Below, piece after piece: positions 17,901 to 54,196 of a DNA stretch of 64,000 bases. The stretch is taken from contig DUDS01000021.1 of the NCBI GenBank assembly GCA_004769085.1, forward strand, positions 1-64,000, read 5' to 3'. This stretch comes from Candidatus Melainabacteria bacterium SSGW_16 (GTDB taxonomy: Bacteria; Cyanobacteriota; Vampirovibrionia; 2-02-FULL-35-15). The first letter of the stretch is position 1. Every line of letters starts with the position of its first letter. A model generated the notes under the pieces. The model had not been told where the DNA came from. It searched no databases and saw only the letters and a program-made list of their open reading frames with translations. Position numbers and translations under genes: made by a program.

Positions 17901-19586
17901 CCTTCTAACTGCATGATCATTGGAAACCTGTTCAAAGAATTTAATTATTTCATCCGGCACCTCTTTAATAGGCGTTCCATGCCTGTTTACAAAGTGAACA
18001 ACAGGTGCAATTAAAACTCCTCTGGTTATTCTTTCCCAGAAAGCCTCAGGATTATAAAACTCGGATTCTTTGCAGATTAGATCGTAATCATTTGCCAAGT
18101 TTTGTGCACAGTATTCTTTCGAGGGTGGTTTATCTGCTCCTGCAAGACGAACATGATTATAAGCTTCCTGTCTTACCCTGAGCATTATTTTTGAGTTATC
18201 AACCTTGTTTGCTTTAATTTTCTGTTCAAGATCACTAATAAGATCCTGAACAACATCAGGCTCTGATCTGGTTTTAAGTTCTTCAGCAAATAAACTTTGA
18301 ATATCAAGCTGAGCCACTATCTCACTGGGTGGTTTGTTTTGTCTTAGTAAGTCTTTGACTAAATCAACTGTCTGCCATTTGCTTTTTCCTTCATCAACAT
18401 TTTTTCTGAGTGCTTCTGCAAAATTTTCCCATGCTTTCTGCTCAGTAATACCGCCGCGCTTTAAGGCATTATCAACATATTCTTTTTTGAGTTTTACTAT
18501 CTCTTTATAGTGAGGCATATATACCTCACCACTAAGTCTGCTTCCGGTAGCCCGATAAGTATCCACCAAATACTTTGGTAAAGCTTTTGGTTCAAAATAA
18601 CAGCACCCATGTTTTCTGACTATTTCAGTAAGAGCATTTATAAAAGTTTTTCCGTTAAATCTTGGTCCTTCAAAATCCTCTAAAAACTCATAAAAATACG
18701 CAAGCCTCATAACTTTAGCTGAATACTTAAGAGGTTTCCCAGGTTCATGCTGAACACTTCCTGTCAGCGTACTTAAGCCAGTTCTTGAAAGTCCTTCAAG
18801 CTGATTGTCTTCTCCAAGTCCGTAGAGTGCACTTACACCACCATTTAAAAGAGCATAAGCAAGTCCATCATCAAGTGCTTCAGGAATAACTCCGTTTAGG
18901 GTATCGAATGGCCCCCTTGCAGTAAGAGCAGTTTCCTGTATTCTAAGTCTTGGTCCTAACCTTAAAGCTTCATTACCCCAGAAAGAATGTTCATCTGCCT
19001 GAAATCTGTTTGTATCCTCAGGATCCAGATTTTTGTGGTCTCTAGTATTATCAATGTCTGTATAACTCCAGATTTCATACCCATCTCTTATTGCTTCGGA
19101 AACACATCTGTACCCACAGTTATTGTAATAATGTTGCATAAGAGTCTGTTCAGGCGTACCGCCCGCCAGAAATTGCTGCTTTGAAGACATTGGAATACCA
19201 CTGGTCAGTGGAAGTCCTGTCCACGGATTAAGATTATTTTTAATATTTGCATCAGCTGCACTAATTAATCTGCCTGAAAGTCCATATAAATAATTAGCCC
19301 TGTTCTCAATTGAGCCATTTGAATTTGCTCTAAGGCTTGTAAGGAGTTGCTCATAGGGTGCATTATCTAATCCACTAAAACCAAATGCAATTCCAACAAG
19401 AGCTAAAAGTGGTTTAAAGAATGCCTGTATTTTGCCAAAAAAATCCTCACCAGAACCTGATGCAGGATTTGCCCGCCTTGGCACGGTTGCTCCAGCAACT
19501 TTCTTTCCTGCTAAAGGGTTTGAACCAGATGATGGTTTACCTGTTACTTTAGAAGCCGGATCTGTTGATCTTGGTACACCGGGCAA
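14928..19586 (-). CDS. Giant 1552-residue protein with HAD-phosphatase-like motifs
   Basis: TTG start at 19586 with AGGAG 7 nt upstream. The N-terminus is a Pro/Gly/Ser-rich basic tail (to about residue 50), then a short hydrophobic segment (FFKPLLALVGIAFGFSG). A HAD-type order of motifs can be read: YTDIDNT (177-181 for DIDNT), PLVSNGIIL (about 728-736), YLEIQPAFDKGNAL (DKG at 802-804), and AAGDSKSDIGML (GDSKSD at 830-835). This resembles class IIB phosphatases such as sucrose- or trehalose-phosphatase and Cof, but with about 550 residues inserted after motif I. The last roughly 350 residues contain several Gly-rich hydrophobic stretches that could associate with membrane. No signal peptide. 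Function unknown; the HAD reading is an inference. Confidence 0.6.
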   Translation of the reverse strand: MPGVPRSTDPASKVTGKPSSGSNPLAGKKVAGATVPRRANPASGSGEDFFGKIQAFFKPLLALVGIAFGFSGLDNAPYEQLLTSLRANSNGSIENRANYLYGLSGRLISAADANIKNNLNPWTGLPLTSGIPMSSKQQFLAGGTPEQTLMQHYYNNCGYRCVSEAIRDGYEIWSYTDIDNTRDHKNLDPEDTNRFQADEHSFWGNEALRLGPRLRIQETALTARGPFDTLNGVIPEALDDGLAYALLNGGVSALYGLGEDNQLEGLSRTGLSTLTGSVQHEPGKPLKYSAKVMRLAYFYEFLEDFEGPRFNGKTFINALTEIVRKHGCCYFEPKALPKYLVDTYRATGSRLSGEVYMPHYKEIVKLKKEYVDNALKRGGITEQKAWENFAEALRKNVDEGKSKWQTVDLVKDLLRQNKPPSEIVAQLDIQSLFAEELKTRSEPDVVQDLISDLEQKIKANKVDNSKIMLRVRQEAYNHVRLAGADKPPSKEYCAQNLANDYDLICKESEFYNPEAFWERITRGVLIAPVVHFVNRHGTPIKEVPDEIIKFFEQVSNDHAVRRYVAKLNHRAGSTTKTHPDIMRFTEKGVKIFKEQGVPQYLNWRLLQHFEDNYSYADEKTNFFKKPLLKNITLANGKPLFVDNGKNLEFSKEFAEESINQYKIGGFNAYREFVRNGFQKANIPLTEDSNLIETFLPTLDDYESLVHTPDKLPDVSPDMKSCSSVAIPHPLVSNGIILERMREMDSHILHNCTSFYPNQMFSINNKRCYDNRYSYNKLINLVLKIDPLNPLGQYYLEIQPAFDKGNALPHPIEIFQLFKHEGKKIMCHAAGDSKSDIGMLARALESGGYADVVFNQIRNVDIFEEIISQRIDYVKDFKNFVRNSGEYSYPADVNGLYQQCCKKFGFFALEKVKVQQKGQLVEKYMKVTGFDQNGKTVHEQNPETSEAILYNKDDILNDLKQHYQSRIIHNTCPEAYLRRRAEYHGAFTGEDIELNPDDCLRATALVQKLDKGEVAREDLNPRDRLLLRRYERIARERLEGYILPQELPRFNVYYEWHDPNGNFVVYRSRKAGGKLVIDRKDGKPPQLFIGGEEGLSTLVKYEITRGSDGKFYLRNEASGIAADFYDDLNCLNDHVIEDRFLSRVPEPQGFLANQKLIKLFGKDNLKTFIQNLPLLFNGLLKYSGLIMAAGGLVRMVSPILGGLQDTVYKSGYWMSNSLRAVSAFGGLLRGELNVHKYHNIAFGELINIVSSFMPNGPKHLGLGLGNFVLFLGRGQQAAQRQQRVNNHTKDVLKGDLKPEQEVDPRPFVRRVTELGTGILLKVKEKATKEGLSAWLGEVVGNVGGGFLSTVQFVKDIFKDPRLILQYKDRRSEKSGSFYKSIPSAGHLLTVVGALSGIGAALAGTFGRSERFGDKDDNGFNRWGNMFIALANAVAAPGILFNAKEIMANTGGLPKLFKGLNGKDMTYNPVVAGVRQMIASLGFLLVPWFGLHNKYVASLFDIVNGVYFLGAAEEEKPNTTALGINILRKAGLYTDPEKNYKVHQFESSGKSAAA

Positions 19587-19923: not shown

Positions 19924-20901
19924 TCAAGCTCTTAACTTTCTGCTCTTATCAAGAAAAAGCTTTGCGGTGAGTATATCAAATAATGCAATGCCTAAATTAA
20001 ATACAAGAATCTTTTTTGGACTATTCCCCCGTTTATATTTCTTTGAAATTAATTCACCGATTTCTTTTTTTATAATGGGCCTGTTTTCAGGAAAGTAATG
20101 TCTAATTCTGCTTTTAAGTTCATACTGGGGAATATCATCTGTATATATTTCATCAAGGTGTTTATATAGTTCAGGATCAACCCTAGTACCGTAATCCACA
20201 GGCAAAATTAAGATGTCTTTCTTTAAATCCTTTGCATAAATATATGGTGAGATCTTTTGAGGGAAAGTAGTAACTGATAAAACTATATCTGAGTTTCTTA
20301 CAACTTCATGATGATTTTTAGTAATTTGAAAATTTTCATTTGGAAAGCTTTTCAGAAAAGCTTTTATAAAATGATCTCCATGATTTAATAAAATAAATTT
20401 TACATTTTTAAAAATCGCTTTAAAGGCAATAACATGAACATAGGCTTGAAGACCTAAACCAAAGATTCCAACAGTAATTTCTTTTTTTCTTGGGGCAAGG
20501 TATTTGGCAGTAACAGCACTAACTGCACCAGTCCTAATAGCAGTTATCCAGTTCCCTTTTAAAACCCCAATAGGTAAGCCATTTTCAGGATCATTTAAAG
20601 TTATTAAACTATTTAAAATAGGTATGTTTTTTTTTACATTTTCAGGAAATGAACTTATCCATTTAATTCCAAATATTTCAAGTTTTTTTCTTTTATTACA
20701 AACTGCTACAGACATTGAGTCTGAAAATGCTCCTTTAACAGGAAGTTTTGGTCCTATTTTAGGAGGAAGACTAACAAGCCCCAGTCCTTTTTTTCGAAAT
20801 CCTTCTTCTACAACTTTAATGACATCCTTTATTTTTAAAACTTTTTTAAGTTTGTTATCATCAAGAACAATTGTTATGTTTTCTGTATTATCCTTAGACA
20901 T
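19924..20901 (-). CDS. Ornithine cyclodeaminase / mu-crystallin family protein
   Basis: A 325-residue NAD(P)-binding enzyme of the OCD/alanine dehydrogenase/ketimine reductase family. Seen: GIKWISSFPEN (substrate Lys), TAIRTGAVSAVTAKYLA (the conserved Arg-Thr-Gly region), the Rossmann loop GIFGLGLQAYVH, and LPVDYGTRVDPELY at the position of the catalytic Asp. Family members deaminate ornithine to proline plus ammonia or act on related imines. Exact substrate unknown. The ATG shares one base with the amtB stop (TAATG), so it is translationally coupled to the ammonium transporter and follows glnB. That points to nitrogen control, perhaps ammonia release or an ornithine-ammonia cycle. Confidence 0.85.
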   Translation of the reverse strand: MSKDNTENITIVLDDNKLKKVLKIKDVIKVVEEGFRKKGLGLVSLPPKIGPKLPVKGAFSDSMSVAVCNKRKKLEIFGIKWISSFPENVKKNIPILNSLITLNDPENGLPIGVLKGNWITAIRTGAVSAVTAKYLAPRKKEITVGIFGLGLQAYVHVIAFKAIFKNVKFILLNHGDHFIKAFLKSFPNENFQITKNHHEVVRNSDIVLSVTTFPQKISPYIYAKDLKKDILILPVDYGTRVDPELYKHLDEIYTDDIPQYELKSRIRHYFPENRPIIKKEIGELISKKYKRGNSPKKILVFNLGIALFDILTAKLFLDKSRKLRA

Positions 20902-22211
20902 TAAATGAAACCTTCCCCAGAACTTACAAATCCTGGATAGGCCTCCATCCCATGTTCACCGATATCAAGTCCGTCAACTTCTTCTTTTTGCGGAACTCTT
21001 AAACCCATTGTAAATTTTAATGCTATCCATATAAGAAACGATGTCATAAATGCCCATAACACAATAGCTATAATCCCAATAAACTGGTATATTAACTGTT
21101 CAAAATTACCACCATAAAATAAACCAGGACCAGGATAAGAAAGACGAGGATGAAGAATTTTGGCAGGCATACTAAACAACCCGAGTGCTAATGCCCCCCA
21201 TATACCACAAACACCATGAACTGAGATTGCACCTACAGGATCATCTATATGAAAAAATCTGTCCATAGTAAGAATTGAAATTACAACCACACATCCTGCA
21301 ATAAAACCAATAATATGTGCTCCGAAAAGACTTACATATGCACATGAACCGGTACTTGCAACAAGTCCGCCAAGAAGTCCGTTAATAATCATTGAAAGAT
21401 CCGGTTTTCTTAAAAGAATAGTAGAAACTACCAGAGCCCCTATACCACCTGTAATTGCACAGGCATTTGTACACAGCGCAATATGAGCACAAAGTTTTGG
21501 CAAAAAACCAAAAGTACAACCCAGGTTAAATCCAAACCATCCAAGCCATAAAATAAATCCTCCCAAGGTAATCATTGGCATTGAATGCCCAAGTATAGGA
21601 TTTGGACTGAGATCTTTATTATATTTTCCTACTCTTGGACCCAGGGCTATTACTCCTGCAAGGGCAGCTACGCCACCAACAGTATGTATCATGAGTGAAC
21701 CTGCAAAGTCACGGACACCAATCTGATAAAGAATCCCTTTTCCTAAAATCCATTGTGCTGCAACAGGATAGATAACTGAAGATATAAAGAAAGTAAAAAT
21801 AAGAAAAGCTGAAAATTTAATCCTTTCTGCAACAGCACCTGAAACAATAGTAGCTGCAGTCCCTGCAAATACAACCTGAAAGAAAAAAATAGCTTCCAGT
21901 GGCAAATCAATGTTTCTCAGTAAAAAATAACTTGTTTGTTCCTCAATAAAAAAAAGATTTTCAGGTAAAGATATAAAAGCTGAGCCACTGGAAAATAAAA
22001 ACGAAAAGCCAATTACCCAGAAGGAAACTGTAGAAATAAAGAACACTGCAACATTTTTCGAAAGCATGTTAACTGCATTTTTCACTCGGCAAAAACCAGT
22101 TTCAAGCATCGCAAACCCACAATTCATAAAAAACACTAACAGTCCCATTACAAGGACCCATAGTGTATCAACTGCGATTTTAAGCTCATGCAAATCGTGA
22201 TCCATATACAC
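20901..22211 (-). CDS. amtB: Ammonium transporter AmtB
   Basis: A 436-residue polytopic protein of the Amt/Rh family with about 11 helices. The signature is present: GFAMLETGFCRVKNAVN near the N-terminus. The pore twin-histidines are visible as SLMIHTVGG and AISVHGVCGIWGALALG. It begins with GTG at 22211 (GGAG upstream) or ATG at 22205; both are plausible. It directly follows the PII gene without a gap, the classic glnK-amtB arrangement in which PII plugs the channel when nitrogen is plentiful. Downstream it overlaps the cyclodeaminase-like gene by one base. Confidence 0.96.
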   Translation of the reverse strand: MYMDHDLHELKIAVDTLWVLVMGLLVFFMNCGFAMLETGFCRVKNAVNMLSKNVAVFFISTVSFWVIGFSFLFSSGSAFISLPENLFFIEEQTSYFLLRNIDLPLEAIFFFQVVFAGTAATIVSGAVAERIKFSAFLIFTFFISSVIYPVAAQWILGKGILYQIGVRDFAGSLMIHTVGGVAALAGVIALGPRVGKYNKDLSPNPILGHSMPMITLGGFILWLGWFGFNLGCTFGFLPKLCAHIALCTNACAITGGIGALVVSTILLRKPDLSMIINGLLGGLVASTGSCAYVSLFGAHIIGFIAGCVVVISILTMDRFFHIDDPVGAISVHGVCGIWGALALGLFSMPAKILHPRLSYPGPGLFYGGNFEQLIYQFIGIIAIVLWAFMTSFLIWIALKFTMGLRVPQKEEVDGLDIGEHGMEAYPGFVSSGEGFI

Positions 22212-22559
22212 CTATCTGCTCTCCAGTGCATTACTCCCGGTTTCACCAGTCCTAATCCGGATCACTTCCTCAACATTTATAACAAAAATCTTCCCGTCTC
22301 CAACCTCTCCTGTTCTTGCTGCATCTATTATTATTTGTGTAGCTCTGCTTACATCTGCGCCATTTAGAACCATTGTAAGTTCCACTTTGTCTAGTAAATC
22401 TATAACATACTCACTCCCTCTATATCTCTCAACAACACCTCTCTGGCTTCCACAACCTTTTACAGCTGTAACAGTAATACCACTAAATCCTGCTTCATGG
22501 AGAGCACCTTTCACTGCTTGAAGCCTGTTTGGTCTGATTATAGCTATGATCATTTTCAT
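22212..22559 (-). CDS. glnB: PII nitrogen regulatory protein (GlnB/GlnK)
   Basis: A 115-residue signal transducer that binds ATP/ADP and 2-oxoglutarate. The T-loop contains RYRGSEY with both Ser49 (phosphorylated in cyanobacteria) and Tyr51 (uridylylated in proteobacteria). GDGKIFV and IRIRTGE, the nucleotide-contact motifs, are intact, as are Gln39 and Lys58. Residue 38, usually Arg, is Ser here, and Lys40 is Arg, which may change ATP or 2-oxoglutarate binding. It is the first gene of the glnB-amtB-cyclodeaminase operon. A TATAAT (22577-22572) lies only 12 nt before the ATG, without a Shine-Dalgarno. Confidence 0.95.
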   Translation of the reverse strand: MKMIIAIIRPNRLQAVKGALHEAGFSGITVTAVKGCGSQRGVVERYRGSEYVIDLLDKVELTMVLNGADVSRATQIIIDAARTGEVGDGKIFVINVEEVIRIRTGETGSNALESR

Positions 22560-22782: not shown

Positions 22783-24282
22783 TTACCCACTACTGTCAGA
22801 CGATTTTTTTATAATGTACTTGTTTTCATAAGAATTATAAACTGCAAAGTCATCCTTTTTATCTCCATCATAATCACTAATCTTAGGAACAAAAGAATTA
22901 TCTGTTTCATCACCCATTCGAACAAATTGAATTTCTTCAGGAGAATGCTTACCTAACAGTCTGTAATAAAAGGTCATTGAGCTTGTTCTATAAACACCAA
23001 TGTCGGTAAAGCTGTCACCATTAAAATTACCTATTACAGGCACATCATTCTCTTCACCGATATGCAATCCAAATTTAATCCCGGCTCTGCTTGAGTTACA
23101 TAAAAATGTTCCAGTATTTTTAGACCATAGGCAAACATCATAAATATAATCAGAATCAAAATCTGACACAAAAGGAACTGTGTCTTGCTTATCTTTCTTA
23201 AAAGTTGAATGATCCATCTTCTTTATAAAAGTGGCAGGAAACATTCTCCTTAAAATAAAATTACTAACAGGGATTGAGTTGGATATTCCTGAGTAATGAT
23301 ATACAGTTTTTTTTAAATCCTGATTCAATCTAAAGCAGACAAGAATCTTCATGGAATCATTCCAGAAAGCAAGTTCACTTAAACCATCACCATCATAATC
23401 AGAGGGAACCGGAAAGAAGTCAGTGTTTTTTAACTGATTTTTTATTTTCAAAACAAGATCAGAGGCTATTTCTCCGGATAGCTCTGAGAAATAGGCTTTT
23501 ACAGTATTGTTCTGAAAATTATAAACAAGAAAATCTGCTTTCCCATCACCATCATAATCAGACGGAAAGGGTAAATAATTAGAACCTCCTAAAGCTTTCT
23601 CAAAGATTTTCCCGTTTCTTGAGTTTTTTACAGTCCACACTCCGTTTTTTTGCCTGTATGTAGCAAAGTCACTTCTTCCATCACCATCGTAATCTTTAGG
23701 AACAGGAATATCACCATTTATACCAATCTTAAATTCATAAGGTTGCTGGTTTGTACTAAATATAACTCTAAACGTGCTGTCCTTTAATCTGTAAACAGCA
23801 AGGTCTGTTTTCTCATCACCATCATAATCACCCGGAACAGGAATATCATTAGAGTTGCCAAACTTTGAGCTGTAGGTATTATTACTACCACCGCTTTTAA
23901 CAAACCAGTCACTATCACCATAGTTATAGCCCCTGTAAACACCATAATCTATAACAGAATCATCATCAAAATATCCGGTAACAGGAATATCTCCTGCCTC
24001 TCCCAGTTTAAAAGCAGAGTGTTGTTTCCCTTTTACAGTAATAGTTTCAAAAAAACATGGTTCAAGAAATTTACCCGGCTTTGACATCCCAGAGGTATTC
24101 CAGAAAATAAGATCTGATTTTTTATCATTATTTAAATCAATTAAATTGTTTATTTTTTGTGCTTCAAAATTTGTAAGTAACGCTAGCTGGTTGATATTAT
24201 TTTCTGAACACCCTGACAAAAACAGTACTGAAAACACTGTCACAAAGTACAAAAAACAAGTCAGTGGTTTTAATTCATTCAT
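22783..24282 (-). CDS. FG-GAP repeat lipoprotein (9 repeats)
   Basis: A 499-residue lipoprotein: signal peptide with lipobox LFLSGC, Cys at about residue 25. The rest is nine repeats of about 45-50 residues, each built on a DxDxDGxxD-type calcium loop followed by an aromatic strand, for example DYDGDGRSDFATYR, DYDGDGKADFLVYN and DYDGDKKDDFAVYN. Such FG-GAP/VCBS-like repeats form beta-propellers on the cell surface. It is the last gene of the 29690-22783 operon and overlaps the preceding gene by 8 bp. It is a paralogue of the first gene of that operon, with the same order of repeats and the same inserted non-repeat segment. Likely a surface adhesin or glycan-binding protein. Confidence 0.85.
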   Translation of the reverse strand: MNELKPLTCFLYFVTVFSVLFLSGCSENNINQLALLTNFEAQKINNLIDLNNDKKSDLIFWNTSGMSKPGKFLEPCFFETITVKGKQHSAFKLGEAGDIPVTGYFDDDSVIDYGVYRGYNYGDSDWFVKSGGSNNTYSSKFGNSNDIPVPGDYDGDEKTDLAVYRLKDSTFRVIFSTNQQPYEFKIGINGDIPVPKDYDGDGRSDFATYRQKNGVWTVKNSRNGKIFEKALGGSNYLPFPSDYDGDGKADFLVYNFQNNTVKAYFSELSGEIASDLVLKIKNQLKNTDFFPVPSDYDGDGLSELAFWNDSMKILVCFRLNQDLKKTVYHYSGISNSIPVSNFILRRMFPATFIKKMDHSTFKKDKQDTVPFVSDFDSDYIYDVCLWSKNTGTFLCNSSRAGIKFGLHIGEENDVPVIGNFNGDSFTDIGVYRTSSMTFYYRLLGKHSPEEIQFVRMGDETDNSFVPKISDYDGDKKDDFAVYNSYENKYIIKKSSDSSG

Positions 24283-25249
24283 AGCTTTGCAGGATTGAAA
24301 CTGTCGGTATAGAACTTTCAGGAACTTCCCATTTATATGAAGAGGATTCCTGCTTTCTGAAATTCAGCACATTCCAGGATCTTTTTGCTCTGCTCCAGGT
24401 AATAAGCTCAGGTACTGAGTCACCATCAACATCACATGAAAGAGGAATATCATTTTTATAACCAAACTTGATCTGGGAAGATTCATTTGGCCCGGTATAA
24501 CGAAAATACCAGGTCTGATCATCGGGTCTCCAGAATACAAGATCACACTTTCCATCATTATTATAATCATTAGGAACAATAATATCCCGTTCCTCCCCAT
24601 GCTTAATATGTTCACTCTCGGAAAAATCAAAATCTGCAGATGATTTAACTATATGCCAGAAACCATCATCAGGCCTCCATACAATAAGATCTGATTTTTT
24701 GTCTCCATCAAAATCTGCTGAAAAAGCAGCATCCTGGTAACTTCCTTCAAGAATTACTTTTTTTGATTTGCTTCCATCCTTTTCAACCGCTGTAAGAAGC
24801 CATGTACTGTTGTTTGGCCTCCAGATTGTTGGATCCTGAACACCTCTTCCATTTATATCTGTCGGTATTGGTATATCACCTAATGAGCCAAGAAAAAACT
24901 TTTCCTGAATATCAGGTTTAGAACTATAGTTTATAATCCACTGTCCGGAATCTCTATGGAAAAAAGCCTGATCTGTTTTCCTGTCACCATCATAATCTGC
25001 AAAAACAGGTTCATAGGGAATCCTTGTTTCAAAGAATTTCCTTTTGTAAAACTGCTGGTTAGAAGACAGCTGATAATATAAGGTACTTGTATTGTTATCC
25101 CACACCGAAAAGTCACATCGCTTGTCATTATCAAAATCAGAGCCATAGTAAGAAAGTGATGCAAAAACAATAAGCTTATCCTTTGTGTACTGCTCAAACC
25201 ATGCAGGAAAAATAAATAACAACAAAGATAAAATAACAGAATACTTCAA
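24275..25249 (-). CDS. Exported FG-GAP repeat protein (6 repeats)
   Basis: A 324-residue protein with an N-terminal hydrophobic signal or anchor (VILSLLLFIFPAWF) but no lipobox cysteine. Six repeats follow, e.g. DFDNDKRCDFSVWD, DYDGDRKTDQAFFH, DFDGDKKSDLIVWR, DYNNDGKCDLVFWR. The third (DINGRGVQDPTIWR) has lost part of its calcium loop. Six blades would allow a complete small propeller. The ATG overlaps the stop of the upstream membrane protein by 4 bp, and its own end overlaps the next lipoprotein by 8 bp, so translation is coupled on both sides. Confidence 0.83.
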   Translation of the reverse strand: MKYSVILSLLLFIFPAWFEQYTKDKLIVFASLSYYGSDFDNDKRCDFSVWDNNTSTLYYQLSSNQQFYKRKFFETRIPYEPVFADYDGDRKTDQAFFHRDSGQWIINYSSKPDIQEKFFLGSLGDIPIPTDINGRGVQDPTIWRPNNSTWLLTAVEKDGSKSKKVILEGSYQDAAFSADFDGDKKSDLIVWRPDDGFWHIVKSSADFDFSESEHIKHGEERDIIVPNDYNNDGKCDLVFWRPDDQTWYFRYTGPNESSQIKFGYKNDIPLSCDVDGDSVPELITWSRAKRSWNVLNFRKQESSSYKWEVPESSIPTVSILQSYE

Positions 25250-27075
25250 GTTACTGACACCTCATTTTTCGCAATGTTTGAAATTGTAAATTTAGTTTTC
25301 TGAATAGATTTTATAAACAGGAAAATATAAATAATAAATCCCAGCAGACTGACATAAGCAGAACCCTGCCTCAGGGGAGTGAGCTCAAAAACAACTTTGA
25401 TTATATGTTTCCCAGCAGGCATGCGAAAAAGCATTGAGCCATTTTTAGGATCCATGCTTACATCAGTTTTTTTGCCGTCTATATAAATTGCCCATCCAGG
25501 AAAATAAAAAGTTCTGAGTCTGATTTGCTGGTTTTCAGGAGAAATAATTTCAAAAATTCTTTCATGAGAATACCACTTTATAAGATTTATATCAGAGTAC
25601 CCACTTGAGGGTTCAATCGACGGGGTAAAGTCCTGTCTATAATTTACCTGCTTCCAGTTAGGATCTCCCGTAAGACTTGGTCTGTATTCTTCATTCCCCC
25701 ATAAAACATTTAATGCTGCTTTCAAGAGACTATTCTCAGGCACCCACTTCCACCTGTACATGTTAACTACATCAACATAAACAAGCATGCAGAAGACACA
25801 AAACATGGCATAAAATGTCATTTTGTATCCGGTAACATTTATTTTCTCATCTGCAAAAGCTTTTACAAGATCAATCGCATAAACAATAATAAGTGAACCA
25901 AATGGTAAAAGAAGAGTTGTAAATCTCCAGGGGAACTGAATGGTTTGCATTGGTTTAAGCATTATCCATGCAAATATGGATACAGGAGTCATCATCAGAA
26001 AACATACTGTAAATAAAATCATAGCCATTTTAATCCTGAAAGGTTCTTTAAAATATCGACCCAGATTGTTCAGGTTCAGAATAAGGATCATAAAGCACAA
26101 AAGAACAGCAACCGAAAATAATCCATTACTCATTTCATAATATCTGTGATCAAAAATTGCCCATGCATAACCATCATCTCTATGCCTGTCCAGATAAGTA
26201 AAAAGAAAGTTTTTTGAATAGTCCCAGAGAGGCGCCTGGGTAAGGATTTCATCAGTATGAACAATGTTTTTTTCTGCACATGCCGGAAATAAGTAAAAAC
26301 CAGCAATTAGTGCTCCAAGAGCCAGACTTAAAACATAATTTTTTACAAACTTTTTACTCCTGTGAATATAGAGATTCATGAATAAATAAGGAACCGATAT
26401 TAATGCAAAGATAAAAGCTGTTGCAAGATGTGCCAGTGCCATAAGCGCAAAACTCATTGAAACAATTAAAAATGACTTATAATCAAAGTCTTTTTCTTTG
26501 TCAAATATATCAATCCCATAGAGGGTTAAAAATAATAAAGCAAGTGCAAGTGTACTGGTAGGCCAATTAGTGTTATATATAAAAATGTGAATGGCAGGAG
26601 AAAAAATAACAAATGCCATTGCAATAGCAGAAGAATAAGGAGATCCGTGCCTTCTCAGATAAAGATATCCAAACACAGTACATAAGATCATTGGGATAAC
26701 AAAGGTCCATTTAATTGCTAAAACTGCATCCCTGAAAAACAGTTCAAGAAAAGTAAATAAATAATAGACAAGGGGAGCATAATAATTAAAAATCGGTTCA
26801 CCATATCCGCTAGCATGTGCATCAATCCATCTTGGAAGCCACTGTCCCTGCCAGAAACATCTTTTAAAGTTGTAAGCATGCTCAATATGAATATGCCAGT
26901 CAGCATGACTGGGAATACTTTTTCCAAAAATAATCGGACCAGTAGAAAACAATGTAAGCAGTATAAGATATACAACTCTTTCAGTTCTTGTTCCCAAGAA
27001 CTGATACCCCTTAGCTGCTGCATTATTAATACTTGTTGGTTCTATTGTTTGTTCAGTCTGCATGCTCTGAGTCAT
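25246..27075 (-). CDS. Polytopic membrane protein, PTPS-related / GT-C-like
   Basis: A 609-residue inner-membrane protein with more than ten predicted helices. An early acidic loop contains SHADWHIHIEHAYNFKR, and a periplasmic stretch includes ASGYGEPIFNYYAPL. Both are features I associate with the '6-pyruvoyl-tetrahydropterin synthase-related' membrane family, which looks like a GT-C glycosyltransferase. Near the C-terminus is a YfhO-like extracytoplasmic beta segment (FYFPGWAIYIDGKKTDV...MPAGKHIIKV) and two last helices. Its stop overlaps the following FG-GAP gene by 4 bp, and it lies 21 bp after the GT2 gene. It probably transfers a sugar from a lipid carrier outside the membrane, perhaps to the co-expressed FG-GAP proteins (inference). 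Confidence 0.75.
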   Translation of the reverse strand: MTQSMQTEQTIEPTSINNAAAKGYQFLGTRTERVVYLILLTLFSTGPIIFGKSIPSHADWHIHIEHAYNFKRCFWQGQWLPRWIDAHASGYGEPIFNYYAPLVYYLFTFLELFFRDAVLAIKWTFVIPMILCTVFGYLYLRRHGSPYSSAIAMAFVIFSPAIHIFIYNTNWPTSTLALALLFLTLYGIDIFDKEKDFDYKSFLIVSMSFALMALAHLATAFIFALISVPYLFMNLYIHRSKKFVKNYVLSLALGALIAGFYLFPACAEKNIVHTDEILTQAPLWDYSKNFLFTYLDRHRDDGYAWAIFDHRYYEMSNGLFSVAVLLCFMILILNLNNLGRYFKEPFRIKMAMILFTVCFLMMTPVSIFAWIMLKPMQTIQFPWRFTTLLLPFGSLIIVYAIDLVKAFADEKINVTGYKMTFYAMFCVFCMLVYVDVVNMYRWKWVPENSLLKAALNVLWGNEEYRPSLTGDPNWKQVNYRQDFTPSIEPSSGYSDINLIKWYSHERIFEIISPENQQIRLRTFYFPGWAIYIDGKKTDVSMDPKNGSMLFRMPAGKHIIKVVFELTPLRQGSAYVSLLGFIIYIFLFIKSIQKTKFTISNIAKNEVSVT

Positions 27076-27096: not shown

Positions 27097-27864
27097 TTAA
27101 TTATACTTGTAAACAAACCTGATCTTTAATACTTCTGTAAGCATCTTTATTGAATCTGCAAGAATACTGATTTTAGATCCTTCAACATGGCACCAGTTTA
27201 CAGGAACTTCTTTAATTTTAAAGCCCAGCCTTTTTGCAAGGAACAGATATTCAACATCAAAAGCATAATTAAAACACTTTTGAAGATTTATGATTTTTTG
27301 GGCTGCTTTTGTCTTGAAAAGTTTAAACCCACACTGTGTATCCTTAATATCAGCAAGCCCAAGAACACTTAAAATCATATGAAATACAAAACCAACAGAT
27401 CTTCTTTTTATTCCCATACTTACTTTTACATCATCTCCTTTTAATATCCTTGATCCACAGACCACATCAAAGCCATTTTCAGCAAAATATATAAGTTTTT
27501 CTGCTTCTTCCACAGGGCTTGCACCATCAGCATCACTATACATTACAAGATCTGTTGTTATGTTACGAAACCCATAACTTACAGCATGCCCCTTTCCTTT
27601 GTTCGGGAAGTAACTCTCAATAGAAAAACAATTCTTGTTTCTGCAAGTTCCTTCAATCCAATTCCTGACAACTTTCTCGGTATCATCCAGGCTACCATCA
27701 TTTATTACCTTCACTTTTAAGAGTGAGGCTTTCTGATTTAAGCCAATATACTCATCAATTTTATTTAATGTGCTTATTATTCTTTTTGTTTCATTAAAAG
27801 CAGGAATTACAATTGTTAATGTGCTTAATGAATTCTTCAAAACTGATTCTTTAGTATAAATCAT
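27097..27864 (-). CDS. GT2 glycosyltransferase, polyprenyl-phosphate type (ALG5/DPM-like)
   Basis: A 255-residue family 2 glycosyltransferase. TIVIPAFNETKRI opens the nucleotide-binding fold. The metal-binding acidic motif is SDADGASP. GKGHAVSYGF and DTQCGFKLF are typical of enzymes that make dolichyl- or undecaprenyl-phosphate sugars (ALG5, DPM1). It has no membrane helices of its own. It overlaps the upstream FG-GAP lipoprotein by 4 bp and precedes the GT-C-like membrane protein. This pairs a donor-lipid maker with a transferase that uses it. Confidence 0.88.
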   Translation of the reverse strand: MIYTKESVLKNSLSTLTIVIPAFNETKRIISTLNKIDEYIGLNQKASLLKVKVINDGSLDDTEKVVRNWIEGTCRNKNCFSIESYFPNKGKGHAVSYGFRNITTDLVMYSDADGASPVEEAEKLIYFAENGFDVVCGSRILKGDDVKVSMGIKRRSVGFVFHMILSVLGLADIKDTQCGFKLFKTKAAQKIINLQKCFNYAFDVEYLFLAKRLGFKIKEVPVNWCHVEGSKISILADSIKMLTEVLKIRFVYKYN

Positions 27865-29690
27865 ATTTTATTTACAAGCACTGAATCCTTTTCACCAAAC
27901 AACAGTTCATCATACCTATAAGCATCGCTTGACTGGACTATTCCAAATATCCCTGTCGCTGGATTATAAAAAATTAAATCAGCCTTAAAATCCATATCCA
28001 CATCAGAGCAGAATGCTATCCCTTGGGCTTTTTCATCAAATGAAAGATTAACAAGTTTTCCAAGTCCGGATGATAAATAAGTAAATATTTTATTATTTAT
28101 GTCAATTAAACCAAGATCATGTTTTCCATCTCCATCAAAATCTTCACTAACAAACTGATTATCAGAAACAATAAATGAAACAGTCTTTTGAGCACCAGTG
28201 GATGAAAGCCTGATTACAAAATTATTTTGTAAGTCAAATGCACCAAAGTCATCGATAAAATCACCATCATAATCCCCTATAAAAATCTTTGCACCTAATG
28301 GAAGGTTTAATTTATATACAGTAAAATTATCATCACTATTGCTTTCTTCTGTAAGTAAATTTTTAATATAGACAGTGCCGGTTTGCGGCACAAAAACCCC
28401 AAAATTTGTTCTGTCACTGTGATTAAAAATACCTACGATGGGTATGCCATTTACTGCTTTAAAAGGAACTGAAACTTCTTTATTGTTTTTTGAAGAATAA
28501 AAAATAAGACTATTGTTGTCTTTTGACCAGTAACCCGGATCCAGTTGCCAGTCCCAGTCAAAATCAGCAAGGAATGGTTCAGAATCACTCATGCCAGGCA
28601 CGTTTTCTACAGAACATCTTTGACATAAAAATTTTCCATCCTTCCACAATGCAAGCCCTGCAAGTCCGTTTCCTTTTACACTTGAGCAGACAGGTCTTAT
28701 ATAGTTATGAAGATATTTCTTAAGAAGAAAATAATTTACAGGCAATGAATTTCCTTTTGAGCTTAGTTGATGAGAGTCATATTTAAGTCCAAAACCCTTA
28801 AGATCAAAAACATGCACTGTTTTTTTATCAGAATCCCAGAATGCGAGCTCACTTGCTCCGTCTCCATTAAAGTCAGAAGATGAAGGAAAACATTTTGTGT
28901 CTCTCAGCCTGTTTTGAATCTCAGAAATTTCCTTATCTGATAATTTTCTTCTAAAAACTGAAGAGAATACAATCCTGCACTCATTATTTGTATAATTCCA
29001 TACTGCCAGATCAGAATGTCCATCCCCATCATAATCAGCCGGAATAGGAAAAAACTCAGGGCCCCCAAGAAAAATTCTTCTGTTTGTGCTGTTTTTTGAT
29101 GACTTTATAAGCCATGTTCCACTTGCAAGCCTGTAAGTAGCAATATCAGTCCTTCCGTCACCATCGTAATCTTTTGGAACAGGAATATCACCTGTAATCC
29201 CAAAATGGGATTCAAGTATTTTCCCTTTGTTTGATAATCTTCCATAAAAACCACTGTTTGAAGGTCTGTAAACCACAAAATCACATTTACCATCACCATC
29301 ATAATCATTTGGAACAGGAATATCACCTACTAATCCAAACTGATCCATTAATGTTGACTGTGTCAGTCCATCAATAATATTCCATTTATTTTCACCATCA
29401 GAATTCTGAAAAACACCATAGTCAAAATAACCATCACCTGTAAAATCACCAAGTATCGGGAAATCACCTGTTTTGCCAATTTTTGCAGTCTGATAATTAG
29501 TATTCCCAAGAGTTACAGTTTCAAAGAAAGGATCTGATACACCATAATTCCAGAATATAAGCTCTGACTTTCCATCTGCATTCAGATCCGTCAGATTGTT
29601 AATTTTTCGGCTTAATTTATTTTGACTAACTGAGCATCCTGCCTGAAAAATAATACAAAACACCATAGTTATCATTAAAATTATTTTCAT
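27861..29690 (-). CDS. FG-GAP repeat lipoprotein (about 12 repeats)
   Basis: The start is set at ATG 29690, which begins a clean lipoprotein signal (MKIILMITMVFCIIFQAGC); an ATG at 29705 is also in frame. The mature protein of about 590 residues has roughly twelve repeats, e.g. DYDGDGKCDFVVYR, DYDGDGRTDIATYR, DFDGDGKHDLGLID. At least one is degenerate (VKGNGLAGLALWK). Its layout parallels that of the 499-residue lipoprotein at the other end of the operon. It is the first gene of the five-gene operon and overlaps the GT2 start by 4 bp. Likely a surface beta-propeller protein. Confidence 0.85.
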   Translation of the reverse strand: MKIILMITMVFCIIFQAGCSVSQNKLSRKINNLTDLNADGKSELIFWNYGVSDPFFETVTLGNTNYQTAKIGKTGDFPILGDFTGDGYFDYGVFQNSDGENKWNIIDGLTQSTLMDQFGLVGDIPVPNDYDGDGKCDFVVYRPSNSGFYGRLSNKGKILESHFGITGDIPVPKDYDGDGRTDIATYRLASGTWLIKSSKNSTNRRIFLGGPEFFPIPADYDGDGHSDLAVWNYTNNECRIVFSSVFRRKLSDKEISEIQNRLRDTKCFPSSSDFNGDGASELAFWDSDKKTVHVFDLKGFGLKYDSHQLSSKGNSLPVNYFLLKKYLHNYIRPVCSSVKGNGLAGLALWKDGKFLCQRCSVENVPGMSDSEPFLADFDWDWQLDPGYWSKDNNSLIFYSSKNNKEVSVPFKAVNGIPIVGIFNHSDRTNFGVFVPQTGTVYIKNLLTEESNSDDNFTVYKLNLPLGAKIFIGDYDGDFIDDFGAFDLQNNFVIRLSSTGAQKTVSFIVSDNQFVSEDFDGDGKHDLGLIDINNKIFTYLSSGLGKLVNLSFDEKAQGIAFCSDVDMDFKADLIFYNPATGIFGIVQSSDAYRYDELLFGEKDSVLVNKI

Positions 29691-29705
29691 TAAGCCGCCA
29701 ACCAT

Positions 29706-29934
29706 AAGTGTATTAACTCTTAGCTCCTATAATCATCCTTACTTAATTAGATAAAAAACTTTTGAATATATAAACAGAATCTTCACCAAACTTTATATTA
29801 TTGTAACTTTATGTTGCCACGACATGAACCTATTCGTCAATTAGTTATTAGACAACTAAAATAATCTTTTGTACCGTTACTAAACGATTGTTTTATTTTA
29901 AGTCCCAGGAAATTTAAAATACAGGAAGGAAAAA
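29706..29934. promoter_or_regulatory. Divergent control region between two FG-GAP transcription units
   Basis: 229 bp between the minus-strand FG-GAP operon and the plus-strand membrane/FG-GAP fusion gene. AGGAAGGA at 29923-29930 is a good ribosome binding site for the ATG at 29935. AT-rich stretches on both strands (e.g. TATATTATT near 29790) could be promoters, but no hexamer pair is convincing. A short imperfect dyad TTAGTT...AACTAA lies at about 29840-29860. Confidence 0.4.
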
Positions 29935-32900
29935 ATGCAGTTTATTCTCTATGCAATTATATTAAGCCTTTTACTTGGCTCATTCTTTTGGTTCTGCGGT
30001 CACATATTGAGAAAAGAACTAAAAACTATAGATGAAAACAATATTCTGCTTTCTCATTTAATTAATATAGCGCTTGGAGCTTCAATTTTTCTTATAGTTC
30101 TAAATCTGGTAAGTACAATCTCCAGAAGCTTTTTAATCGGATTAATAGCAAGTCTAGTAGTAATTATTGGAATTATTGGCTGGCAATTTAAAGAATTTAA
30201 AAACTTTTACACTGGTCTTTTAAAATCAGTAACAAGCAATGAACTCTTTGAAAAAATAAATAAAAATACTGACAAATATTTCTGGATTCTGCTTGGAACA
30301 GTTAATTTTATATACATTACAGCAGCAATATCAGATACAAAATTAGACAGATTTGGAGAAGGAAATACCCACATATTCAACATAAACCAGCTGATTAGTA
30401 ATATATACCCGCCAAAATATGCATTTTTACCTACAGTAAGCCTCAGGACTCATTACGGGGCAGATATATTTGGTGCAGTACTTTCAAAAATTTCAAATTG
30501 CCATCCGGAAATCTCTCTGGATTTACTCACCATTATCTTTCTTAATTTAAGTTTTCTAACTGTTTACGCAATCGTGCTTAAGTTTTTAGATTCAAACCCG
30601 GTGAACAAATATCTTGTTCCTTTTGTTGTTTTTCTCGGTTGGGGACCCGTTACATATCTTTTTACCAGCATTAAAGATGAAAATGCTCCAGGGGGAATCC
30701 TTGATAAATTATTTTATGTTTCACAAAACACTTTGGCAGATTCAGCCACATGGTCAGGTAATGTACTTAAATGGTTTTTTGAACCATCTAGTGGTATAGG
30801 TGTATTCTTCTTTCTGATTGGTTTATATTTGCTCCTCAGATTCTTCAGAAATGAAGAGAAATTTAATTTTCTTATTATCCTAGGTATATTTCTAAGCAGT
30901 TTTGTAATTATAGACGGAGCAAAACTTATAATTCTTACTATTGGTACCTTTCTTTATCTTATATTTTCATATTCTCCTCAAACCAGTTTCAATAAATTTA
31001 AAAATGAAACGGAACTTCTGCAAAAGATAGGAATAGTCCTGGGAACTGCATTGGTGCTTGGATTTGTTCATGGAAATTGTATAAAGTTTGATAGTGGCTT
31101 TGTATCGCTTGAGGAATACTTCAGATTTGGACAAAAAAGTGGTTTCATTGATGAAAAATTTAATATTTTCAAAAGCAATACTCTACTACTTATTGCCTTT
31201 ACTTATGGTTTTTACCTGGCATTTAAAGCAAAACATGAATGGCTTACATTTCTGATACCTTACTTTATCGCAAGCCTGATAATTCCTGTAATAATTTCGA
31301 TTCCGGACTCAGGTGCAGGAAAAATCCTGATGAATACAAATATTCTTGGTGCTTTCTCTTTACCAATGGTTATTAATTTTGCTTTGCAAAAATTTAATTT
31401 GAAGGATGTAAAATTAACTGCGTTTTATTTGACTGTATTTATACTGTTAGGTTTTTCTACACTATTGTTCTGGGCATTTGGAGATAAATCAAAACCAGTT
31501 TTCAATATTGACAAAGGGTTTGTTAAATATACAGGATTACAAACATTTCCTACTGCTCAGACAATAGATGAAGTTAAATACAGGGAAGAGCTTGCGTTCA
31601 TAAATTACATAAAGTCAAAATCAGTCAGAGGCGAAGCAATTGTAACAGAACCGGATTATGCTGAAATATTCACCAAAGACACCGGGTTGTTAAGCATAGC
31701 CCCTCCGCCAAATATATCTGGTTTGCCGATCAGGAAAGAGATAATTGATCAGAGTTTTCAGGACTTCAGAAAATCTTTTCTGCTTGATAATAAAGCATGG
31801 TTGTCAAAAAATATAAGATGGATTTACATGACTCCAAGAATGTTCAGGCATTATCTGCCTCCCCAGGTAAGGAAAATACTGCTTAATGCATATCTTAATA
31901 AAGGCGCAGAACTTGCATTGAGCAATAAAAAACTGGATAATCTTGAAAACTTGAAAGAGTTATATAAAGTAAATCCTGCGAATCTGACCAGCAACATCAG
32001 TGACAATTTTGCAGAACTTATAAACAATTTTCTCCATAGCAATCCTAAGAACCTGCCTTATTACATAAAACAGATTGCATTGTGCCCGTATTTTGGAATT
32101 TATGGTGCAAAGTCAAACGATTTTGATGGGGATAAAATCTCAGATATAGCATTCTATGATCCACTTAAAAAAACATGGCATATTGTATATGGAAAAGATG
32201 GTAAGGAATCTGAAACAGATCTGTCTGCAAGTATTCTTTTAACCTTGAAGGGAAATGATATTTTAATACCAGTTCCTTCTGATTATGATGGCGATTCAAA
32301 AACAGACATAGCTCTTTTTAACAGAGCAGACTCAAGCTGGTATATTTTAAGATCTTCTGATGCGGGAATTGAGCCCACAAAAACATGGTGCGGCGAATGG
32401 AGTGAATCACCCCTGCCAGCTGATATTGATGGTGACTCAAAAACAGATACAGCCTGTTACAACGGCAGGGACAGAAGATGGCCTGCATTTCTATCAACTG
32501 TAAATAGCTATCATGCTGATGTTCTGGACACTACGCCAGTAGACATAACTGTTTATTCAGATATAGATGGTGATAAAAAAGCTGATTATGTTTTTTATAA
32601 TCCACAACAGCAGATATTCAGAATTCGTACTGCTTCAATCCCCGGCTCAGGACAGGAAAGTTCAAAGATATTTGAGTTTAAAATGGGTACTAAATCTTCT
32701 AGAGTGGTTACAGGTGATTATGATGGAGATGGGAAAACAGATATAGCCAGCTGGTCTCCAGTAAGTGGCAAATGGGAGATCGCTTTTGCAAAAGATATAT
32801 TGGCATCTGGTTCTAATGAAGGAAATCACAAAGTTATAACACTGGGAAAACCAGGTGATATCCCAATGCCGGGAGACTATAATGGGGATGGAAAAACAGA

Positions 32901-33021
32901 TATAGCAATATATTACATTGATAATTCTGAACTTGAAATTGTATTTGATAATGGTACAAGAAAACAAATTAATCTCTCCAAATACAAAAACTTTATTCCC
33001 GCAAATTTTATAGGAATCTAG
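29935..33021 (+). CDS. Membrane protein fused to six FG-GAP repeats
   Basis: A 1028-residue protein. Residues 1 to about 525 are a polytopic membrane domain with more than ten helices and a GT-C-like layout. About 525-725 is an extracytoplasmic region (containing EPDYAEIFTKDTG and WIYMTPRMFRHYL) like that of YfhO-type proteins. From about 728 to the end there are six FG-GAP repeats, e.g. DFDGDKISDIAFYD, DYDGDSKTDIALFN, DYDGDGKTDIASWS, DYNGDGKTDIAIYY. A good Shine-Dalgarno precedes the ATG. The fusion directly ties the repeat class to a membrane transferase-like enzyme, mirroring the neighbouring divergent operon. The next gene starts at the very next base after the stop. Confidence 0.82.
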   Translation: MQFILYAIILSLLLGSFFWFCGHILRKELKTIDENNILLSHLINIALGASIFLIVLNLVSTISRSFLIGLIASLVVIIGIIGWQFKEFKNFYTGLLKSVTSNELFEKINKNTDKYFWILLGTVNFIYITAAISDTKLDRFGEGNTHIFNINQLISNIYPPKYAFLPTVSLRTHYGADIFGAVLSKISNCHPEISLDLLTIIFLNLSFLTVYAIVLKFLDSNPVNKYLVPFVVFLGWGPVTYLFTSIKDENAPGGILDKLFYVSQNTLADSATWSGNVLKWFFEPSSGIGVFFFLIGLYLLLRFFRNEEKFNFLIILGIFLSSFVIIDGAKLIILTIGTFLYLIFSYSPQTSFNKFKNETELLQKIGIVLGTALVLGFVHGNCIKFDSGFVSLEEYFRFGQKSGFIDEKFNIFKSNTLLLIAFTYGFYLAFKAKHEWLTFLIPYFIASLIIPVIISIPDSGAGKILMNTNILGAFSLPMVINFALQKFNLKDVKLTAFYLTVFILLGFSTLLFWAFGDKSKPVFNIDKGFVKYTGLQTFPTAQTIDEVKYREELAFINYIKSKSVRGEAIVTEPDYAEIFTKDTGLLSIAPPPNISGLPIRKEIIDQSFQDFRKSFLLDNKAWLSKNIRWIYMTPRMFRHYLPPQVRKILLNAYLNKGAELALSNKKLDNLENLKELYKVNPANLTSNISDNFAELINNFLHSNPKNLPYYIKQIALCPYFGIYGAKSNDFDGDKISDIAFYDPLKKTWHIVYGKDGKESETDLSASILLTLKGNDILIPVPSDYDGDSKTDIALFNRADSSWYILRSSDAGIEPTKTWCGEWSESPLPADIDGDSKTDTACYNGRDRRWPAFLSTVNSYHADVLDTTPVDITVYSDIDGDKKADYVFYNPQQQIFRIRTASIPGSGQESSKIFEFKMGTKSSRVVTGDYDGDGKTDIASWSPVSGKWEIAFAKDILASGSNEGNHKVITLGKPGDIPMPGDYNGDGKTDIAIYYIDNSELEIVFDNGTRKQINLSKYKNFIPANFIGI

Positions 33022-34686
33022 ATGAAGAATATTCAGACTTATGACATAAAAAAATATTTTTTTTTATCTATTATATTTCTATCTTCATCATATTTTGTAT
33101 TAATTCCTTTTTTAAAATATGAGACCTGGCTAGGTGGACACGATTCTACAGGAACAATATTTAATGCATGGAGCATGGTTAAAACTTTAAGAGAGGATTT
33201 TCATCTCCCGTTATATTGGCAACCAGATAATTGTGGCTATAAGGGAAATCCTTATTGGGCTTTCTACCAGCCGCTTTCCTATGCCATGGTCTATTTTAGC
33301 TCTATCTTTACTTCACTCTTTGATAGAAATTACCTTTTTTCTGCCTTAAAACTCGCAGTATATCTATCATTCTTAATATCTGAAATTGGTATGTATTTTC
33401 TTCTTAGATCCATTTTTAGAGATTCCAAAATAAGAGAGCTTGTATCTGTATATGGAGCAATTATTTATCTTCTTTCCCCATACAGATTTATTGACTTATA
33501 TTCAAGAAATGCATATTCAGAACTCTGGACTTTTCCATGGATGCCATTTTACTTTCTAGGTTTTTATAAGTTATTCTTCTTAAAAGAAAAGAATGGTTGG
33601 ATTCTAATTGCAATTTCAACACCACTATTAATTTTTAGCCACCTTATGCCTTCATTTTTCTTTATTCTTATTGTAACTGTGGGTTTTCTCTTTTTTAAAC
33701 TAATTCAAAGAAATTTAGTAAGTTTCTTCAAAGAAAATAAATCACAAATTATATGGTGGTTTATTGGAAGTATGACAGGCGGTGCTATTTCACTACTATA
33801 TATTTTACCCGCTATGAACGTTATTAAATATATAAACGGAGACATAATGGGCTTTGATAGAGTAAGTCTTGATAACGTTTTAAATCATATCAGCTGGTGC
33901 TATGACATGCTGGATCTATTGAATTTCAAAGGTTCATGGCAGGTGGGACAAACATTCTTAATATCATTTTTTGTTTTAAATTTTTTACTTCTTACAAAAA
34001 GAAAATCTCATAATGTAAACCTGATGGTATTTTTAAATATATTGGTAATAATTACTTTTGTCTTTTTAATGAGTAGAATTTTTTGGGAGCATATACCAGC
34101 AATATTATATAGCCTTCAGTTTTCATGGCGATTATTTTTAATATATTCATTTTTCTGTTCAATAATTTTGGCTTTACTGATAAATGAATTAAATTTAAGA
34201 ATTCCTGTTTTGGTATTAATACTTGCTTTCCATTTTTACACTGGTGAAAGGTTTCTGCATTATGGTGGAGAAGATATAGTGGCCAAATATTACGATGTGG
34301 AATCCTGGTTAAACACTCTCTACAAAAAGCATTTTACAACCACTAATAATTACAGTCCCAGAAGCATTCTTCCTAAAACCTCAAATCCAGTCTTTTTTAA
34401 TTTTGATCATGCCGATCAATTAGGAGACAATGAAAGATATTCAAATACTTACTTGATGAATCTAAAGCCCGGCATAAATATACTCTCCCATGAACATTCA
34501 GGAAATACTTTTATTTACGAATTATCTCTGGATCATGCCTCGTTTCTGATATTTAAACAGTTTTTTTATCCATCATGGGAGCTGTATATTGATTCAAAGA
34601 AATCAGATATTTATCTCACCGAGAAAGGATATATAGGATTTGAGGTACCTAAAGGAAAACATACAGTAAAAATCAGATCTAATTGA
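33022..34686 (+). CDS. Polytopic membrane protein, PTPS-related / GT-C-like, shortened C-terminus
   Basis: A 554-residue membrane protein of the same class as the one at 25246-27075. It has the early loop GGHDSTGTIFNAWSMV, the segment NPYWAFYQPLSYAMVYF, and many helices. The C-terminal YfhO-like segment (FFYPSWELYIDSKKSDI...VPKGKHTVKI) is present, but the protein stops there (RSN) without the one or two final helices of its relative. It starts immediately after the stop of the membrane/FG-GAP fusion, so the two are a unit. Its end overlaps the convergent SDR gene by 8 bp. Confidence 0.75.
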   Translation: MKNIQTYDIKKYFFLSIIFLSSSYFVLIPFLKYETWLGGHDSTGTIFNAWSMVKTLREDFHLPLYWQPDNCGYKGNPYWAFYQPLSYAMVYFSSIFTSLFDRNYLFSALKLAVYLSFLISEIGMYFLLRSIFRDSKIRELVSVYGAIIYLLSPYRFIDLYSRNAYSELWTFPWMPFYFLGFYKLFFLKEKNGWILIAISTPLLIFSHLMPSFFFILIVTVGFLFFKLIQRNLVSFFKENKSQIIWWFIGSMTGGAISLLYILPAMNVIKYINGDIMGFDRVSLDNVLNHISWCYDMLDLLNFKGSWQVGQTFLISFFVLNFLLLTKRKSHNVNLMVFLNILVIITFVFLMSRIFWEHIPAILYSLQFSWRLFLIYSFFCSIILALLINELNLRIPVLVLILAFHFYTGERFLHYGGEDIVAKYYDVESWLNTLYKKHFTTTNNYSPRSILPKTSNPVFFNFDHADQLGDNERYSNTYLMNLKPGINILSHEHSGNTFIYELSLDHASFLIFKQFFYPSWELYIDSKKSDIYLTEKGYIGFEVPKGKHTVKIRSN

Positions 34687-47386: not shown

Positions 47387-47390
47387 AGAT

Positions 47391-53387: not shown

Positions 53388-54196
53388 CACTCTGCCTCTA
53401 ACAGCTTCTGCCTGTATTGTTCTTCTTCCATATTTCTTATAAAATTCACATCACTTACAGACAGATAATCAATCTCCCATTTTTTTAAATTTATAAGTTC
53501 GGCAACCTTGTTTGAATAAACATTTAATTCTGATATTGCAATTTTCTGTTTATTTGATAATTTATTTTTATCAAGTGCAGAATAAACTACATGATCAGGT
53601 GTTAAAAACCCTTCTAAACTGATACTTTTGTAAGAGTCTGGCGAGTATTTAAAATAACCGGAGAGAGTATTAATAACTTCACTATGTAATCCAGTACACC
53701 CATCTTTATTTGGCGCAGAAACAAAAATACCATGGTTCTTTAAAAATAAAACCAATGGTTTGTTTAAATCTATGTCATTTGCTTTTACAAAGTCATGGAT
53801 TTTCTTAAATAAATTTTTACCGGGATTTGCATAATCAATCCAGAAATAATTTTTCCCGTTAAAAAGCTCATAAAAAACTTTTTTACCCTCTTTCGCACAT
53901 ACAATCCCACCTACAACAATAGGGTGAGTGTGAATAATATATTTGCCAAGCAAAAAATGAATAGCAGTTTCTAATGATGGTCTCAAATTTGGATTAATTA
54001 GTGGTTTCATTGTTCCAATTTCAAGAGAAACATATCCATTCTCCAAAGTCACATCTTCCAAAAAGAAACCAGATGCCTTAACAAGCATTTCATTACTGGC
54101 TTTTACAGAACAATTACCTCCTCCTCCCTGCACAAAACCGGGGTGCTTTGCAGCATAAGCAGATAAGTCTACTAAGTCTTGAATTAGCCTGCTCAA
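53387..54196 (-). CDS. Class II aldolase/adducin family protein
   Basis: A 269-residue protein, TTG start at 54196, the only one fitting the family N-terminus ([20 protein letters not shown]). The phosphate-binding GGGGNCSVK and the zinc histidines in YIIHTHPIVVGGI are visible, with NHGIFV carrying the third His. Such enzymes cleave or form sugar phosphates, or act as epimerases. The operon setting between a kinase-like fusion and a double nucleotidyltransferase suggests it makes the phosphorylated carbon chain that is then activated. It overlaps the upstream gene by 4 bp and the downstream one by 1 bp. Confidence 0.87.
   Translation of the reverse strand: MSRLIQDLVDLSAYAAKHPGFVQGGGGNCSVKASNEMLVKASGFFLEDVTLENGYVSLEIGTMKPLINPNLRPSLETAIHFLLGKYIIHTHPIVVGGIVCAKEGKKVFYELFNGKNYFWIDYANPGKNLFKKIHDFVKANDIDLNKPLVLFLKNHGIFVSAPNKDGCTGLHSEVINTLSGYFKYSPDSYKSISLEGFLTPDHVVYSALDKNKLSNKQKIAISELNVYSNKVAELINLKKWEIDYLSVSDVNFIRNMEEEQYRQKLLEAE

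Follow-up and report, generated by a model that had tools for sequence, protein, structure and literature searches.

What does a single polypeptide that joins a polytopic membrane domain to six FG-GAP/VCBS repeats do, and does it form one system with the divergently transcribed operon beside it? We considered these questions for a locus in Candidatus Melainabacteria bacterium SSGW_16, from a lineage of non-photosynthetic relatives of cyanobacteria. The DNA analysed (the window) is the first 64,000 nucleotides of contig DUDS01000021.1. FG-GAP/VCBS propellers are an abundant, largely unassigned class of bacterial repeats, and here a natural fusion ties calcium-type members of this class to membrane glycan synthesis.

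Architecture and distribution of the fusion

The open reading frame at 29935-33021 on the forward strand is intact, with an ATG start, a good ribosome-binding site upstream (AGGAAGGAAAAA) and zero internal stops. Its 1028-residue product opens with a polytopic domain, continues with a soluble alpha/beta domain and ends in six FG-GAP/VCBS repeats, arranged as follows.

29935..33021, + strand: fusion protein, 1028 aa (predicted GT-C-fold membrane domain, soluble alpha/beta domain, six-bladed FG-GAP/VCBS propeller)
29935..30234, + strand: aa 1-100, extra N-terminal transmembrane helices before the GT-C core (hydropathy and AF2 helices; GT-C matches start near residue 100)
30235..31494, + strand: aa 101-520, predicted GT-C-fold core (VIA-align, Foldseek)
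30334..30522, + strand: aa 134-196, first extracytoplasmic loop and start of the next helix (H146, Y158, P159 and D196 invariant; the canonical Asp column is N144)
31495..32064, + strand: aa 521-710, soluble alpha/beta domain linking membrane core and propeller (AF2 secondary structure)
32104..33018, + strand: aa 724-1028, predicted six-bladed propeller with six Dx[DN]xD calcium-type loops

The C-terminus matches PF13517 (FG-GAP_3) at 2e-19 (70.4 bits, against a gathering score of 26.9) and PF01839 at 8e-13, and the six Dx[DN]xDxxx[D/E] loops lie at residues 729, 783, 830, 876, 928 and 981. Residues 1-720 have no Pfam match at E<=1; the N-terminal half is polytopic by both hydropathy and the AF2 model. 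The full-length model is of moderate confidence (pLDDT 70.9, pTM 0.53), with residues 137-143 of the first extracytoplasmic loop (EL1) below 50. The intact frame, Pfam matches, hydropathy, AF2 model and six loops all bear out a sequence-only reading of this DNA, which had described a polytopic domain and six FG-GAP repeats in one polypeptide.

The fusion was found in all 11 sampled genomes of its own family (Candidatus Melainabacteria/Caenarcanales, 8 genera), while a whole-genome search of the 49 other genomes of the class gave no homologue of it. Membrane-domain identity to the 10 other family species (referred to by G numbers below) is 33-55%, with identical architecture, and the homologues are about 1030 residues each, repeats included, except that the contig of G004 stops within its copy. 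A profile search across 289 class genomes returned, beyond the family, weak unfused paralogues only. A pattern scan with the membrane domain across 84,980 species genomes, through which genomes outside the phylum were covered, found 9 loci, all from Candidatus Melainabacteria or Caenarcanales, and 9/9 read on into fused repeats. This search for the domain combination in relatives had been set beforehand as a check. Because the same architecture recurs in 10 other species, from separately assembled public genomes, the fusion is neither a chance event nor an assembly artefact, and its absence from relatives is ruled out as well. Its recurrence in all family genomes and at every locus of the scan means that it most likely predates the radiation of the family.

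Among the plasmid matches listed by tblastn with the fusion, the propeller part alone was matched, and no plasmid place covered 80% of the query. For the best FG-GAP matches in 386 genomes of the phylum, no polytopic protein was present at any inspected locus outside the family. The cyanobacterial best matches (G331 and G380) were rejected, being stand-alone propellers with no GT-C beside them. We also set aside the only other FG-GAP gene of the SSGW_16 genome (contig C9, 3-3377, - strand), whose 1129-aa product resembles subtilases, is secreted and carries VCBS-type repeats plus a Ser-rich tail; it is not a membrane fusion.

Predicted folds of the membrane core and the repeats

Residues ~100-540 of the AF2 model match solved GT-C enzymes in VIA-align: yeast and human STT3/OST (Z 16-18), ArnT (15.6), AftA (15.3), PglB (15.2) and Pmt4 (15.0). 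As helical bundles can reach Z values of up to 13 by chance, the argument rests on the dominance of GT-Cs in the match list. Foldseek also gave PglB as the best match (E 9e-6), with other GT-Cs near the top. The model thus points to a polytopic core of GT-C fold.

By profile comparison, the membrane domain is similar to paralogues in the same genomes that are of the DUF2298 (PF10060) type (hhalign 94.8%, 619 columns). Two of three such paralogues score above the PF10060 cut-off; the 11 fused proteins themselves have no PF10060 match at E<=1 (gathering score not reached). By way of these paralogues the fused domain is DUF2298-related and belongs with a DUF2298-like branch of GT-Cs. It had been called "GT-C/YfhO-like", of which the first half is upheld by VIA-align, Foldseek and the predicted model; the second half is dropped, as YfhO (PF09586) has no match at E<=1 in any fused member and the nearest relatives are the DUF2298 paralogues. 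A PDB sequence search with the membrane domain gave a single chance match. Elsewhere in the window (45035-49781, - strand) are two tandem, similar membrane proteins of ~790 aa, the first with a borderline C-terminal YfhO match.

Structure prediction of the repeats was a second check set beforehand. Modelled alone with AF2, they form a six-bladed propeller (pLDDT 82.2, pTM 0.83). Among solved structures it comes closest to UmbA4 (Z 24.3, rmsd 3.1, 292 residues), which is also the only PDB sequence match of the propeller profile (1e-8). Next come six entries of fungal GlcNAc-binding lectins (PVL/PAL/Agrocybe lectin, Z about 15), and non-lectin propellers score Z 13 or less, about 11 below UmbA4. 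The six-bladed propeller of UmbA4 was solved with a teichuronic-acid-like ligand; two binding sites were tested by mutation, and pocket residues differ from blade to blade (PMC13274773). VCBS, PVL and integrin-like propellers have been placed in one supercluster (PMC8023676). The model suggests that the fused domain has the propeller fold of FG-GAP/VCBS lectins (UmbA4/PVL type). Given these fold neighbours, sugar binding is the favoured inference, and the fused propeller probably binds sugar.

The neighbouring, probable glycan module

On either side of the fusion lie the following genes, of which those on the - strand form the operon.

33022..34686, + strand: GT-C-like membrane protein (weak PF10131/DUF6541 matches), directly after the fusion stop; order identical in G001, G007 and G009
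29706..29934, no strand: divergent intergenic region of 229 bp between fusion and operon
27861..29705, - strand: FG-GAP lipoprotein, 614 aa, FQAGC
27097..27864, - strand: GT2 (PF00535) of polyprenyl-phosphate-hexose synthase type, probable donor maker (sub-cutoff NCBIfam matches: PgfS, dolichyl-P-hexose and Und-P-Ara4FN transferases)
25246..27075, - strand: partner GT-C (PF10131), with invariant H57-A-D59-W-H61, in 11/11 family genomes
24275..25249, - strand: stand-alone membrane-anchored propeller, 324 aa, its gene overlapping the partner GT-C gene by 4 bp
22783..24282, - strand: FG-GAP lipoprotein, 499 aa, lipobox LSGC

In sequence, the fused propeller is closest to the stand-alone one of 324 aa (hhalign 99.9%, E 1e-37), and such stand-alone proteins are also the top non-fused matches in propeller searches. 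Across the 2.25-Mb genome only five genes have FG-GAP matches, and four of these lie at 22.8-33.0 kb of the window. Among the family genomes, the fusion and the partner GT-C are both present in 11/11 and the 324-aa propeller in 10/11; the partner GT-C, like the fusion, is found in 0/49 other genomes of the class. The fusion is divergent from the GT-C/GT2 side in ten genomes, with 0-2 intervening genes; the G001 contig breaks off a little upstream of the fusion. The surroundings of the operon are glycan-synthesis genes.

That fusion and divergent operon constitute one system, as had been proposed from the fusion itself, is well supported, because the propellers are kin, the three components co-occur and the divergent adjacency holds wherever contigs allow it to be tested. 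The accompanying idea that both contain the same type of enzyme found no support: when the fused membrane domain was compared by profile with the PF10131 GT-C of the operon, no similarity was detectable (0.1%). The same applies to its comparison with the downstream GT-C at 33022-34686 (0.4%).

Several further features of the region were recorded. AmtB and PII genes (20901-22559 of the window) lie directly downstream of the FG-GAP operon, and the operon of G002, G003, G007 and G009 is likewise followed by PII, whether or not AmtB accompanies it; a link between nitrogen status and the glycan module is possible. A 1552-aa protein with no Pfam match is encoded at 14928-19586 (- strand), and similarly large ORFs stand beside the module in G001 and G005. 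Three fusions of other kinds fall in a single cluster of the window: a 698-aa ORF joining a membrane protein to a phosphoribulokinase/uridine-kinase domain (54193-56289, - strand; PF00485, 3e-35), one or more nucleotidyltransferase-like regions with a GT2 (51090-53390, - strand) and RmlD with a GT2 (61290-63044, + strand).

Proposed role and comparison with known systems

Our best reading is that the fused protein is a membrane glycan transferase, or a scaffold, that would grip a growing surface glycan by its tethered lectin. The soluble domain and the six-bladed calcium-type propeller would stand on the outward face of the GT-C-fold membrane protein. The partners of the fusion in the module would be the GT2, the PF10131 GT-C, the stand-alone propeller and the propeller lipoproteins. 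The GT2 would load a sugar onto a lipid carrier (polyprenyl phosphate), one or more GT-C cores would transfer the lipid-linked sugar outside the membrane, and the propellers would hold the acceptor glycan chain, the part proposed for the carbohydrate-binding modules of AftD. On balance we favour this picture of a GT-C-fold membrane protein whose tethered propeller binds glycan and which cooperates with the divergent module in building or attaching a surface glycan. Transferase activity is its weakest inferred step, since the Asp usually found in the first loop is absent.

An Asp in EL1 is the expected catalytic base of GT-C enzymes. It stands a few residues before a His (xDxxxH or similar) in 12/12 distinct DUF2298-like paralogues, whereas the aligned column of the fused proteins holds Asn, Ser or Ala in 10/11 and Asp in G005 alone. 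As this conserved acidic residue is lost in all but one member, we class the fused protein as a GT-C-fold protein and a putative transferase at most, and the earlier label "enzyme" becomes putative too. The protein may use another base or be non-catalytic. We lean slightly towards an active core, with H146, D138, D196 or D327 as candidate catalytic residues. H146 is invariant, and D196 is present in 11/11 fused proteins, D177 and D327/K330 in 10/11 and D138 in 9/11.

The main alternative is a pseudo-transferase: catalysis would have been lost, and the core, as a scaffold in the membrane or a sensor of glycan, would present its lectin propeller to the two partner GT-Cs (PF10131 and 33022-34686), by which the chemistry would be done. 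It differs from the favoured picture solely in the activity of the fused core. We regard this alternative as clearly less likely, though a serious minority view. It gains from the Asp column just described, from the partner GT-C present in every family genome and from an EL1-region Asp that is invariant in both neighbouring GT-Cs (D59 of the partner, D41 of the 33022-34686 protein), a comparison made by eye because profile alignment with the fused domain fails for both. Against it, EL1 and the transmembrane region that follows are still the best-conserved parts of the membrane domain, which suggests that some function at this site is likely retained. The conservation of H146, D196 and D327/K330 also speaks against it, and some GT-C-type enzymes, WaaL for example, work with a His base (PMC12203961). 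A more specific and somewhat less probable version is that a pseudo-GT-C without the catalytic Asp acts as a lectin-bearing glycan receptor or chaperone that licenses a separate polymerising or ligating GT-C enzyme.

Other roles can be imagined for the propeller. FG-GAP propellers also act as protein-binding scaffolds, as in integrins. Propellers in general are common interaction scaffolds, so that this one might dock the fused GT-C, the partner GT-C and the propeller lipoproteins into an envelope complex while binding no sugar; the mycobacterial beta-propeller protein MMAR_1667, which belongs to one complex with FecB and AftB, a GT-C enzyme (PMC12802301), would be a precedent. We consider this unlikely, as the seven best structural neighbours are all lectins, the best well clear of the non-lectin propellers, and a role like that of a carbohydrate-binding module has been suggested for FecB and MMAR_1667 themselves (PMC12802301). 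Still further down, and very improbable, is the notion that the FG-GAP domains are acceptors, with the GT-Cs glycosylating the propeller lipoproteins and the fused propeller forming a built-in, substrate-like tail. The co-occurrence of GT-Cs with propeller proteins is indeed conserved, and protein-glycosylating GT-Cs (OST, PglB, Pmt4, DPY19) are among the fold matches, but G002, G003 and G005 keep the fusion, the GT-C and the 324-aa propeller with no lipoprotein at the locus.

Returning to the favoured picture of a glycan-gripping membrane protein, the constant company of a partner membrane transferase suggests one machine for a surface sugar coat. Should the propeller indeed bind the nascent chain, many "FG-GAP lipoproteins" beside GT-C genes become candidate accessory factors, which would parallel the recently described pairs of mycobacterial envelope proteins and GT-C enzymes. 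The locus also offers a conserved module that is open to experiment, and this in a lineage for which metagenomes are almost the only source.

A literature search on FG-GAP/VCBS-glycosyltransferase fusions, Melainabacteria with FG-GAP and GT-C pseudoenzymes found nothing relevant; GT-C enzymes with appended carbohydrate-binding domains are already known, and the literature searched yielded none whose appended domain is an FG-GAP/VCBS propeller of lectin type. The closest likeness in design is to the mycobacterial arabinosyltransferase AftD, in which a GT-C core and one or more outward glycan-binding modules share one polypeptide (PMC12802301) and which is among the fold matches of the fused core (Z 10.5). 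The fusion differs from AftD in that its module is a six-bladed FG-GAP/VCBS propeller, its EL1 Asp is not conserved and no sequence relation was seen. The FecB-MMAR_1667(Rv3035)-AftB complex likewise pairs a GT-C enzyme with a beta-propeller envelope protein (PMC12802301). However, the propeller of MMAR_1667 is a WD40 domain, predicted to be eight-bladed, on a separate protein, whereas the fusion carries a six-bladed FG-GAP propeller in its own chain and has separate copies encoded nearby. UmbA4 (PDB 9oee) resembles the fused propeller in its six blades and calcium-type loops, but is the secreted targeting subunit of an antibacterial particle, joined to a trypsin-like domain and not to a membrane protein (PMC13274773). 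Finally, the DUF2298 proteins have the EL1 pattern H...YPP...HYG.D in common with the fusion, besides the similarity via paralogues, and the fused proteins depart from them in having no PF10060 match, in lacking the EL1 Asp (10/11) and in the added propeller.
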